In this document: positions 12,840-16,071 of the stretch, one piece after another | Numbering within the stretch: position 1 is the first letter of the stretch | Layout: each line of letters starts with the position of its first letter | Origin: Novosphingobium sp. 9U | GTDB taxonomy: Bacteria; Pseudomonadota; Alphaproteobacteria; Sphingomonadales; Sphingomonadaceae | Assembly (NCBI RefSeq): GCF_902506425.1 | Contig: NZ_LR732469.1 | Location: forward strand, 1,181,001-1,245,000 | Direction of reading: 5' to 3' | Length of the DNA stretch: 64,000 nucleotides | Translations under genes and position numbers: made by a program | The notes under the pieces: model-generated | Told to the model about the DNA's origin: nothing | Databases searched by the model: none | What the model saw: only the letters and a program-made list of their open reading frames with translations

Positions 12840-12936
12840 CTAGTTTGCAACAAAGGCCAAAATTTTGTGTCGACAGCCGTCCATGTTTTGGCGGCTCCGT
12901 CTCGAAATCGCGGCGCTTCGTCGCTAGAGATTGGTG

Positions 12937-14730
12937 ATGCCCGAAATACGCCGCCTTCCCGACGATCTCGTCAACCGCATTGCGGCGGGAGAAGTGGTCG
13001 AACGTCCGGCATCGGCGCTGAAGGAACTGGTCGAGAACGCAATCGACGCGGGATCGCGCACGATCGCGGTGCGCCTTGCCTCAGGCGGGCTCGACCTGAT
13101 CGAAGTGACCGACGATGGCTGCGGCATGGGCTCCGCCGAAATCGCGCTGGCGCTCGAACGCCACGCCACCTCCAAGCTGCCTGACGAGCGGATCGAGATG
13201 GTCGCCACGCTGGGCTTTCGCGGCGAGGCGCTGCCCTCGATCGCCAGCGTCGCGCGGCTCACGATCGAGAGCCGGGCGCGGGGCAGCGAGGAAGGCTGGC
13301 GGCGGGCCGTCGATCATGGCTCGGTCAGCGGCGATGGCCCGGCCGCCTTGCCCCCGGGCACCCGTATTCGTGTGGAAGACCTGTTCGGGCGCGTGCCCGC
13401 GCGGCGCAAGTTCCTGCGCAGCCCACGCGCGGAATACGCCGCCTGCCTCGATGTCGTACGCCGGCTGGCGATGGCACGGCCCGAGATCGGCTTCACGTTG
13501 GAGCACGATGGCCGCCGTGCTCTCGCAACGCAGCCGGAGGAGGCGCTGGCGGCTCGCGTGGCTCGACTGGTCGCGCGCGAACTGGCCGAGGACGGCATCG
13601 TCATCGAAGCCGAGCGTGGAGCGGCCAGGCTCACCGGCGTGGCGGGCCTGCCGACGTTCAACCGCGGCGTGGCCGACCACCAGTACCTCTTCGTCAACGG
13701 TCGGCCGGTGAAGGATCGGCTGCTGATCGGTGCGGTGCGCGGCGCCTATGCCGACATGCTGGCGCGCGATCGTCATGCCGTGCTCGCGCTGTTCCTCGAC
13801 GTCCCGCCCGAGGAGGTCGACGTCAACGTCCACCCGGCCAAGACCGAGGTGCGCTTCCGCGACCCCGCCTTTGTCCGCGGCTTCGTGGTCGGCGCGCTCC
13901 GCCACGCGCTGGAGGGCCAGGGCCAGCGCAGCGCGCAGGCACCGGCTGCGGACGCCATGGCGGCCTGGCAGGTCGAGCCGTTCGTTCCGCCCACACCGTC
14001 GCTGCAGTCGCTGTTTGCTCGCGAACATGCTGCGACTGGCAACGCCGTGCGCGAGGAGAGCGCGGCCTGGCGCGGGTTCGAGCCGGCGGTCACGGCCCCG
14101 CCTGCCGCGCGCGCCGAAGCTGCCGCCCCCGAAGCTCCAGCGGCTGAGTACCCGCTCGGCGTAGCACGCGGGCAGGTGGCCGGCACCTACATCGTCGCTG
14201 AGGCTCAGGACGGCCTTGTCATCGTCGACCAGCATGCCGCGCACGAGCGGCTCGTGCTCGAACGGCTCAAGGCCGCGGGTGCCGAAGAGGCAATGCAGCG
14301 CAGCCAGGCGCTGCTGCTACCCGAGGTTGTCGAACTGGAAGAACCCGATTGCGACCGCCTGGAGGACAAGGCCACCGATCTCGCCCGCTTCGGGCTGGTC
14401 GTCGAACGCTTCGGACCTGGGGCGATGCTGGTGCGGGCGGTGCCCTCTGTGCTCGGGAAGGCCGATGCCGCTTCGCTCGTGCGCGACATCGCCGACGACC
14501 TTGCCCGCCACGGCGACGCGTTGCTGCTGGGCGAAAAGCTCGACCTCGTCCTGGCGACCATGGCCTGCCACGGCTCGGTGCGGGCGGGACGGGCTCTGTC
14601 GGTGGCGGAGATGAACGCCCTGCTGCGCGAAATGGAGCGCACGCCACGATCTGGCCAATGCAACCATGGCCGCCCCACATGGGTGAAATTACAACATTCG
14701 GATATCGAGAAACTCTTTGGGCGCAAGTGA
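12937..14730 (+). CDS. mutL: DNA mismatch repair protein MutL, with an apparently replaced 3' end
   Basis: Mismatch-repair mediator, 597 aa. The N-terminal GHKL ATPase has KELVENAIDAGS, DDGCGM and GFRGEAL; the C-terminal domain has the metal-binding endonuclease motif DQHAAHERLVLE (about 430) and the CNHGRPT motif, so it should nick DNA itself, as in bacteria without MutH. ATG 12937 is preferred over TTG 12931 and GTG 12934 because AGAGA lies 6 nt upstream. Oddity: the last ~30 codons (from about 14640) use AT-rich codons (AAA TTA CAA CAT), and a second copy of the final 15 residues occurs at 15335-15382. Confidence 0.96.
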   Translation: MPEIRRLPDDLVNRIAAGEVVERPASALKELVENAIDAGSRTIAVRLASGGLDLIEVTDDGCGMGSAEIALALERHATSKLPDERIEMVATLGFRGEALPSIASVARLTIESRARGSEEGWRRAVDHGSVSGDGPAALPPGTRIRVEDLFGRVPARRKFLRSPRAEYAACLDVVRRLAMARPEIGFTLEHDGRRALATQPEEALAARVARLVARELAEDGIVIEAERGAARLTGVAGLPTFNRGVADHQYLFVNGRPVKDRLLIGAVRGAYADMLARDRHAVLALFLDVPPEEVDVNVHPAKTEVRFRDPAFVRGFVVGALRHALEGQGQRSAQAPAADAMAAWQVEPFVPPTPSLQSLFAREHAATGNAVREESAAWRGFEPAVTAPPAARAEAAAPEAPAAEYPLGVARGQVAGTYIVAEAQDGLVIVDQHAAHERLVLERLKAAGAEEAMQRSQALLLPEVVELEEPDCDRLEDKATDLARFGLVVERFGPGAMLVRAVPSVLGKADAASLVRDIADDLARHGDALLLGEKLDLVLATMACHGSVRAGRALSVAEMNALLREMERTPRSGQCNHGRPTWVKLQHSDIEKLFGRK

Positions 14731-14750
14731 CGGCATTTTTCTAGCGGCGG

Positions 14751-14775
14751 CAGCTATCGCCCAATAGCAGACATC
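14751..14775 (+). repeat. Short dispersed repeat CAGCTA-N9-AGCAGAC, copy 1
   Basis: 25 bp that match the copy at 15205-15229 at 23 positions; only the two central bases differ. It lies 20 nt after the mutL stop and just upstream of the unknown gene at 14799. AGCAG and CTGCT around 14768-14783 also form a small inverted repeat. Confidence 0.75.
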
Positions 14776-14798
14776 GCTGCTACCGCGTAGGAAAGACG

Positions 14799-15200
14799 AT
14801 GTTGTCCGACAGCCTCCGTGCGCTACCTTATCTCGTTCATACGAATCGCGAGCTTGGCCTGATGCTGAAAGGCGTCAAGCCGATGGCGATGTTCAGCGAC
14901 ATCGTAGGGAGAGAGCCGGAATGCGCAATCCGGTATCTTCGATTGTTCGACCGCCATGTTGATGCAGGTCGCTTTGAGCGACGGATCGTGGACAAGCATG
15001 TCCCGCTTCGACCAGATTGGTTGTCGCGCCGCATCTTTTACACCCTGCCGGACGAGGCGTGGCGCATCGATGCCATGCTGGAGTTGGTTGTTCACTATGG
15101 CAGATGGACTAACGAGCATGAGCGCCGCTTCGGCACGCTCCTCGGCTATGAGGACTGGCAGAACGACATCTTGCTGGTCATCCGGTCGCAGGATGAGTGA
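14799..15200 (+). CDS. Hypothetical protein in the mutL 3' insertion
   Basis: 133 aa, function not recognised. It has a good ribosome site (AGGAAAG, 14789-14795) before the ATG. The protein is soluble, with no signal peptide or membrane segment, and rich in Arg, Leu and aromatic residues; the C-terminal half (WRIDAMLELVVHYGRW, then FGTLLGYEDWQNDILL) looks helical. Base composition is lower in GC than the flanking genes. It is bracketed by two copies of a 25-bp repeat (14751 and 15205) and lies between two versions of the MutL tail, so it is probably acquired DNA. Confidence 0.7.
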   Translation: MLSDSLRALPYLVHTNRELGLMLKGVKPMAMFSDIVGREPECAIRYLRLFDRHVDAGRFERRIVDKHVPLRPDWLSRRIFYTLPDEAWRIDAMLELVVHYGRWTNEHERRFGTLLGYEDWQNDILLVIRSQDE

Positions 15201-15204
15201 ACAG

Positions 15205-15229
15205 CAGCTATCCACCAATAGCAGACATC
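15205..15229 (+). repeat. Short dispersed repeat CAGCTA-N9-AGCAGAC, copy 2
   Basis: Direct repeat of 14751-14775 (23/25 identical), beginning 4 nt after the stop of the 133-aa gene, so the two copies bracket that gene. Confidence 0.75.
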
Positions 15230-15334
15230 CTTCTCAAGCTGCTCGGTTTGGAGCCTCTTCGTGCCGACCGCGTTAAGCGGATCATGGGCACGAACAACCA
15301 TACGCTTTGGCTTGCGTCTTATGCTGCTAGGTTG

Positions 15335-15382
15335 GTTAAGCTTGCCCATCAGGACATAGAGAAGCTGTTCGGGCGAAAATGA
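15335..15382 (+). pseudogene. Second copy of the MutL C-terminal tail (probable remnant of the original mutL 3' end)
   Basis: These 15 codons plus TGA encode VKLAHQDIEKLFGRK, 13 of 15 identical to the last residues of MutL (VKLQHSDIEKLFGRK, 14683-14730), but the DNA is clearly diverged (different synonymous codons), so it is not a recent exact duplication. Its TGA overlaps the ATG of the following lipoprotein gene (ATGA), the layout expected if this had been the original mutL end in a mutL-lipoprotein operon. The frame is open back to a GTG at 15197 (61 codons, MNSSYPPIADILL...), which could also be read as a small ORF. Confidence 0.6.
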
Positions 15383-15900
15383 TGAGAGCGTGGCTGGCGG
15401 TGCTGGGTGTGGCGGTCTTGGCGGGCTGCGATGGCAACGACGATCCCCAGCACAAGGCGGCCGACGACGCCCACGACGTCGCGCTGGTCGAGCGGCTGAA
15501 CCAGCCTCCATTCAAGCCGGTGCTGCCGCAGGCGTTCACAACCGAGGACATTGCGCGCTACGACCTGGCGCGTGCCGGGTGCATGTTCCGGCCCGGCAAC
15601 AAGGCCGACGAGGCCCCGCTGTTCGTGGCGCAGGAAGACCGCGGCTACCTGAAGATCGACGGCAAGCTGCGCCCTCTGGCGGTGAAGAGCGGCAGCGCCG
15701 AACTGCCCTCCGGCGCGCACAGCACCTATATCGGCACCTCCAATTGGATCGAACTGGTCGCGCAGGCCGGCGGCGAGGGCAGCGGACCGGGAGGTGCCAA
15801 GGCCTGGCCGAGCCGCCTGGTGATCCACGACGCGAACGAGCGCGTGGCCTTCGACTCGCTAGGTCAGGTGAGTTGCGCGGGATCAGCCGAGAAGGGTTGA
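15379..15900 (+). CDS. Putative lipoprotein, unknown function
   Basis: 173 aa with a lipoprotein signal peptide (MMRAWLAVLGVAVLAGC; lipobox LAGC, lipidated Cys17), so probably anchored in the outer or inner membrane facing the periplasm. The mature part has two more cysteines (GCMF and VSCAGS) and no recognised domain. Its ATG overlaps the TGA of the MutL-tail remnant by 4 nt, suggesting it was once translated directly behind mutL; it now sits about 650 nt from the functional mutL stop. Confidence 0.8.
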   Translation: MMRAWLAVLGVAVLAGCDGNDDPQHKAADDAHDVALVERLNQPPFKPVLPQAFTTEDIARYDLARAGCMFRPGNKADEAPLFVAQEDRGYLKIDGKLRPLAVKSGSAELPSGAHSTYIGTSNWIELVAQAGGEGSGPGGAKAWPSRLVIHDANERVAFDSLGQVSCAGSAEKG

Positions 15901-15928: not shown

Positions 15929-16019
15929 CGTCCTCCCGGACTTGATCGGGGATCCCGCTTCTTGCCGCGAGCGCTCACCGGCGCGACGAAAAGCGGGGTC
16001 CCGGATCAAGTGCGGGACG
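15929..16019. repeat. Palindromic intergenic repeat, family A
   Basis: Imperfect inverted repeat: left arm 15929-15960 and right arm 15991-16019 share the core CCGGACTTGATC / GATCC-GGG / CCCGCTT. Related elements at 52877 and 62274 share the CGTC-CCGGAC/GTTGA-CCGGGA core. It lies between the converging lipoprotein gene and the outer-membrane protein gene and could also end transcription. Confidence 0.65.
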
Positions 16020-16071
16020 ACGGCTAGGGTTAAGTTGCAGCTGAACGTTAGGCCGGAACCCAGGGCGGCCA

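Follow-up and report, generated by a model that had tools for sequence, protein, structure and literature searches.

The 3′ end of the mismatch-repair gene mutL was analyzed in a 64,000-nucleotide stretch of Novosphingobium sp. 9U (contig NZ_LR732469.1, positions 1,181,001 to 1,245,000 of the forward strand; this whole stretch is hereafter called the window), where a short insert separates mutL from a lipoprotein-like gene and is flanked by two versions of the mutL end. mutL starts at ATG 12940, with an in-frame TTG upstream at 12931, and its host part runs on the plus strand, as do all features given below, to the Trp codon TGG at 14680–14682 (12940–14682; Pfam MutL_C and others). The gene then continues into a functional tail at 14683–14730, which gives the MutL C-terminus VKLQHSDIEKLFGRK and ends with the stop codon at 14730. 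A second MutL tail, VKLAHQDIEKLFGRK with a stop codon, is encoded at 15335–15382, and its TGA overlaps the ATG at 15379 of a 173-amino-acid (aa) lipoprotein-like open reading frame (ORF; 15379–15900), a gene that lies directly 3′ of mutL in close relatives. The two tails are identical at 32 of 48 nt and, as read from the sequence, at 13 of 15 residues.

A 51-nt tail profile, built on the tails of 14 relatives, was scanned over both strands of the window. It scored 76.7 at 15332 for the second tail and 43.3 at 14680 for the functional one; since the next best place on either strand scored −13.3, the two-tail observation is not a matter of chance. The original prediction, made from the letters of the window, had described a second MutL tail about 650 nt past the end of mutL, 13/15 identical in protein with differing codons and overlapping the start of the next gene, and it holds on each of these points.

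The displaced tail is the native one

Both tails were compared with 128 distinct mutL tails by nucleotide identity over 48 nt. The displaced tail at 15335–15382 reached 45/48 and was the closer of the two for 115 of the 128, whereas the functional tail reached at most 37/48 with any of them; the 120 nt of mutL just before the functional tail are up to 90% identical to relatives, so the last codons do not match like the rest of the gene. Because the displaced copy, not the functional copy, matches the tails of relatives, the functional tail is, by nucleotide similarity, foreign and brought in from outside, and the displaced tail is the ancestral one.

The two relatives with the most similar lipoprotein genes (G037, 85% identical; G115, 82%) have a mutL that ends in VKLAH(E/S)DIEKLFGRK and overlaps or abuts the lipoprotein gene, with no 133-aa gene between, as the original prediction had expected of a strain without that gene. 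Its proposal that incoming DNA carried its own mutL 3′ end and restored the frame is likewise supported, and the integrase-bearing elements with substitute tails described below show that this can happen. Its further argument, that the AT-rich codons at the functional mutL end betray import, has no diagnostic value, for AT-richness is shared by the ancestral tail (GC content 0.417 for the new tail and 0.479 for the ancestral tail, vs 0.708 for the mutL body). Perhaps the native tail owes this composition to its overlap with the beginning of the lipoprotein gene.

The insert carries one cargo gene and shares its right end with another insert

The window element measures 652 bp from core to core, contains no integrase and carries one homology-supported gene, on the mutL strand. 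This cargo gene of 133 aa (14799–15200), which had been predicted between the tails, has no Pfam or PHROG match. Homologues were found in 8 of the 118 other genus genomes searched and at 61 loci in named genomes, mostly of Alphaproteobacteria, the best (84–87% identity) being from Sphingomonas and an unclassified alphaproteobacterium; no mutL tail was seen near the homologue at any of the 61 loci, in the DNA examined around each. The locus of the most similar homologue (L106) has an internal stop. The fold of the protein is predicted with fair confidence (mean pLDDT, the predicted local distance difference test, of 87), and no function follows from it. Novosphingobium sp. FKTRR1 (G003) has a decayed homologue (L157) on the contig that carries mutL, about 8 kb away from that gene and not at its end.

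Two direct repeats had also been predicted, at 25 bp; they are present, and their length is corrected to 26 nt with 92% identity. One stands before the cargo gene (14750–14775) and one directly past it (15204–15229), and the pattern, with up to 3 mismatches, occurs at only these two places in the genome. As attachment sites they were rejected, lying inside the element beside the cargo gene and not at its ends. AGCRGAC motifs flank the cargo gene as well (14766–14774 and 15220–15228). Around the 133-aa homologues (L106–L166) this motif is denser within 250 bp than farther off (0.217 vs 0.068 per 250 bp), and it stands near the homologue in only 14 of the 60 loci usable for the count (61 found).

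The right-end segment of the element, 15205–15299, is homologous to the right end of the insert in another genus genome, G103 (local alignment score 58, reached by 0 of 300 shuffles), well above the other pairs (21 pairs compared at each end; next right-end scores 30 and 28), and it lies 33 nt from the crossover in the window and 30 nt in G103. Because these right ends are homologous although the cargo is unrelated, the two inserts point to one element family with exchangeable cargo.

Further downstream, between the lipoprotein gene and the next gene, an inverted-repeat-like stretch was seen by eye at 15930–16030 (parts CCCGGACTTGATCGGGGATCCCGCT and AGCGGGGTCCCGGATCAAGTGCGGGAC).

Second tails recur downstream of mutL in the genus and family

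We surveyed 70 genus genomes (the window's included) and 60 from other genera of the family by aligning each genome's own tail and a consensus tail locally with as much as 3.4 kb of DNA past mutL; the same DNA, reversed and reverse-complemented, served as control. Nearest relatives and genomes with an absent or displaced lipoprotein gene were taken first, and some genomes offered only 1.5 kb downstream; because the genomes were selected, the counts are not unbiased frequencies. Above all controls were 4/70 in the genus (G000, the window's genome, 90; G062, 70; G103, 59; G002, 40; control maximum 34) and 2/60 in other genera (G207, 78; G361, 59; control maximum 39), G361 having two displaced tails, both decayed. 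Among the 70 genus genomes, G029 has a decayed tail beside its lipoprotein gene, 92 kb from mutL and in inverted orientation. G034 was not counted, its score of 34 equaling the control maximum and resting on a 23-nt match. In G009, G033 and G077 mutL and the lipoprotein gene are separated by DNA that holds no second tail. The two-tail layout is scattered among relatives and not fixed. As for the separation of mutL and lipoprotein gene in G029 (contig C24, around 155440 and 248190; L098, L099), it is a rearrangement with one breakpoint near the mutL-end site.

The inserts differ in cargo. G062 carries a 264-aa protein found in 1 of 195 genomes searched, G103 a 528-aa ORF plus others, and G207 and G361 unrelated ORFs, while the 116-bp insert of G002 has no ORF cargo. 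An ORF of at least 127 codons lies on the mutL strand in 6 of the 7 inserts; opposite-strand ORFs are longer in G361 (144 vs 127 codons) and nearly equal in the window (131 vs 133), and of the seven inserts only the window's has a cargo gene backed by homologues.

Large serine integrases are encoded beside mutL

Scanning virus contigs with the MutL C-terminus led to two informative loci. In the phage contig L167, mutL ends with an unusual tail, VKLDSQSLAKLFGR and a stop codon, and is followed, after 11 nt, by a gene for a 566-aa integrase with Resolvase, Recombinase and zinc-ribbon domains and then by phage-like genes; L168 is a provirus end that holds only the mutL tail, at TTG/GT (the slash marks the crossover). 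Matches in two other virus contigs (L228, L229) were discarded as chance matches in phage DNA. On one more virus-labelled contig (L290, IMGVR_UViG_3300006853_000481) mutL stands beside terminase-, portal- and capsid-like ORFs, with no integrase seen there; these head genes are possibly a gene-transfer-agent head cluster.

When the L167 integrase was searched for in 94 genomes of genus group g77, two matched at E ≤ 1e-80, G668 (48% identical) and G643 (40%), and in both the integrase gene comes right after mutL (11 and 45 nt). The MutL tails beside these integrases are unusual (VKLDLSAVAKLFGRH in G668, VKLDLKSVEKLFGRK in G643, each followed by a stop), those of three other g77 genomes inspected being VKLGHGD or IKLAHGD. 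Both integrases have Resolvase and Recombinase domains, with the zinc ribbon just below cut-off. The host tail VKLGHGDIEKLFGR is found downstream, at a core-to-core distance of 25,481 bp in G668 and of 4,458 and 5,040 bp in G643. The 582 bp between the second and third tails of G643 contain a single ORF of 127 aa with a weak resemblance to Imm32 (E 0.0065, below cut-off), and by its layout this unit is a small insert in tandem with the integrase-bearing one. The 4.5-kb integrase element of G643 (contig C28:14893-19933; L293, L298) also has a 266-aa ORF that, by eye, resembles a smaller resolvase/invertase. A recombinase with Resolvase, Recombinase and zinc-ribbon domains adjoins the putative attachment site inside the elements of L167, G668 and G643, and none does so in the window element. 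G440 encodes an integrase with 100% identity to the L167 protein, but its sequence breaks off at the integrase start, which hides the junction.

More distant serine recombinases were not associated with mutL: within flanks of about 1.5 kb, mutL was near none of 29 such loci, taken from a genus search (20 of 195 genomes, E ≤ 1e-30) and a family search (9 of 397, E ≤ 1e-60). An integrase search of 5 genomes in the genus of G361 gave no match.

The displaced tails start at or near a common crossover point

From comparison with empty sites and displaced tails, the left crossover point, a putative attL core, was placed at the GT of 14683–14684, and the right one, a putative attR, at TTG/GT of 15332–15336 with its core GT at 15335–15336. 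Ten displaced tails, prophage-like ones included, start at or a few bases from the same GT after the Trp codon; those of the window, G029, L168, G103 and G002 begin at the GGT or GT of the post-Trp codon, and the G668 tail and both G643 tails were placed by inspection. TTG precedes this GT in 7 of the 10 displaced tails (exceptions: G103, G002 and G207), vs TGG at empty sites. The displaced tails of G361 are too decayed for placement.

The half-sites of the G668 element are inverted-complementary at 16 of 20 positions, the 99.9th percentile of shuffles being 12, and those of G643 at 12/20 or 10/20, depending on the tail used.

Proposed mechanism and alternative explanations

We consider it probable that the mutL 3′ end serves as an attachment site (attB) in Sphingomonadaceae for elements that rebuild the gene. 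Recombination would take place at the GT just after the Trp codon of CNHGRPTW/VKL, and the element would bring along its own version of the final ~15 codons of mutL, coding but written in different codons, on one side of its crossover point. Upon integration, mutL would read into this copy and stay complete, the host tail being pushed to the far end. An enzyme of the large-serine-integrase type, acting in trans or since lost, would have inserted the 652-bp element of the window, and the replacement tail would be kept by selection on the MutL endonuclease domain. Empty sites, displaced tails, the common crossover region and phage-like elements with an integrase beside mutL are all apparent at the sequence level. 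The window element itself may be, with about equal likelihood, a one-gene cassette moved in trans or the remainder of a larger element after deletion. A broader idea, that the mutL end is a platform for cassettes of ~0.5–0.9 kb, we hold only tentatively and with more doubt than confidence. Such cassettes would use a spare mutL 3′ end as half-site, be moved in trans by the large serine integrases of mutL-targeting phages, lie on the mutL strand and be stackable as tail-gene-tail-gene-tail, in the manner of an integron with a mismatch-repair gene as its site.

Several observations weigh against attachment and rebuilding at the mutL end, or against extending it to the window. The window element has no integrase, and its mobility is predicted from its structure. 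Its half-sites match at 8/20 positions (shuffle mean 5.4, 95th percentile 9); those of G062 (7), G207 (6), G103 (8), G002 (5) and G029 (5) are no better, and half-sites paired across different elements match at 7.5 positions on average and at 15 at most. Since the window's own half-site symmetry is not significant, its enzyme is one that we infer. Its tail also lacks the VKLD start of the tails of integrase-bearing elements. All serine recombinases from the genus search were distant from the L167 enzyme (27–36% identity). In G062 and G207 the similarity of the displaced tail extends a few bases further upstream, with mismatches. Import of a tail is not shown in G002, because there it is the displaced tail that looks decayed (profile 30.2), the functional one resembling a native tail (72.5). 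The unusual functional tail of G029 resembles that of G143, which has ordinary core genes downstream, and by this resemblance it may be native to the G029/G143 clade. The window's genome has a large serine recombinase of its own (G000 C1:1363769-1365316; L196), 34% identical to that of L167 and about 168 kb from mutL.

The lack of significant symmetry in the window half-sites would also fit site-specific integration at the mutL end in which the window element was moved by an unrelated recombinase, such as a tyrosine integrase, and it agrees with this that no close serine integrase turned up in the genus search and that the 3′ ends of housekeeping genes are frequent targets of tyrosine integrases, as described in PMC4701971. 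We regard this as unlikely, however, for the window element has the same crossover point and TTG/GT signature as the integrase-bearing elements, and a rough scan for motifs of serine and tyrosine recombinases at the first 40 family and 19 genus loci revealed no convincing integrase beside mutL. Homology-assisted illegitimate recombination, by which the mutL 3′ end of another species entered together with its downstream gene, the left join lying in mutL and the right one made by GGT microhomology, accounts for the foreign tail, for homologues of the 133-aa gene with 84–87% identity in Sphingomonas and for the fact that what both window junctions and the empty site have in common is limited to these three bases, GGT. 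It is nevertheless quite improbable: ten cases with unrelated cargo agree in the position of the right junction, which is also that of the integrase-bearing elements, the left junction is at the same GT and not anywhere in mutL, and 0 of 61 loci of the 133-aa gene have a mutL tail nearby.

That two copies of one sequence flank the insert could suggest a target-site or tandem duplication of the host's own mutL tail, followed by divergence. In the window, however, the divergent copy is the functional one and not the free one, and the same 48 nt would have had to be duplicated at one precise position in several lineages whose cargo differs, which itself calls for an explanation, so that we find this account very improbable. 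It is hardly credible that the arrangement is an ordinary and old one in which 15197–15382 is a separate gene of 61 aa. The frame is open, but as a gene the ORF is unsupported (one sub-threshold Pfam match at E 0.13, no PHROG, and hence no family match above cut-off); it is absent in G037 and G115, and its similarity to relatives starts only at the crossover.

Why the gene end would have to be restored

The crossover lies just after CNHGRP of MutL, the counterpart of the CPHGRP motif, which in MutL endonucleases binds metal and holds the catalytic Arg (PMC10366529). Because it directly follows CNHGRP of the endonuclease domain, an element without a replacement tail would truncate MutL, and loss of the tail would be expected to impair the protein. 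The residues after the crossover end in LFGR in all tails compared for this feature. We take this terminal motif to be the one named FxR, a name for which our literature search gave no support.

Loss or decay of an element could accordingly affect the mutation rate. A recurrent attachment site inside a mismatch-repair gene would extend over four or more genus groups within a single family (the window's genus, g14, g22 and g77). The serine integrases next to mutL are candidate new site-specific integrases, and for G668 and G643 both junctions can be seen; the small inserts offer a defined place for finding orphan accessory genes. If it is true that the small inserts move in trans, they would be an unusually small mobile unit.

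Comparison with known systems

In the literature searched we found no mention of an attachment site at the 3′ end of mutL, and the main text of a survey of large serine integrases (PMC10083194) does not contain ‘mutL’. Phage WO carries a mutL, the site named for it lying elsewhere (PMC9203015). The SpyCI islands of Streptococcus pyogenes are described as entering the 5′ end of mutL and blocking its expression (PMC3430984, PMC4701971). They resemble the present case in being phage-related elements with mutL as their site, whereas here the insertion lies in the last 16 codons and the 3′ end, not the 5′ end, is used and rebuilt.

The mutL-linked integrases, with their Resolvase, Recombinase and zinc-ribbon domains, are like those of serine-integrase prophages of the A118/phiC31 type, whose attP sites are described as pseudo-palindromic with 25-bp half-sites (PMC3783163). 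The G668 half-sites, like those of the A118 attP in that account, are pseudo-palindromic around a central dinucleotide. Unlike such prophages, the window element lacks an integrase and shows no significant symmetry between its half-sites.

A close parallel is e14 in the icd gene of Escherichia coli K-12, which, as described, integrates near the 3′ end, supplies a synonymously diverged in-frame end and displaces the original as icdC (PMC11148124, PMC6379469). In the window, too, the 3′ end of a conserved gene was entered, a diverged coding end was supplied in frame and the original end was displaced to the far side, with uninterrupted empty sites in relatives; the window element would thus work like an element of the e14/icd type, possibly as a defective or non-autonomous member. 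It differs from e14 in gene and host, in the length of the supplied stretch (165 bp in e14 vs ~48 bp in the window) and in being a 652-bp element without an integrase.

Integron gene cassettes are small, mostly one-gene units at a fixed site and are able to stand in tandem. The small inserts described here are likewise mostly one-gene, occupy a fixed site and can be in tandem. No integron integrase, attI or attC turned up in general family scans of the window, in which no dedicated search for them was made. Unlike the site of integron cassettes, the site here is the end of a gene, which each unit regenerates.

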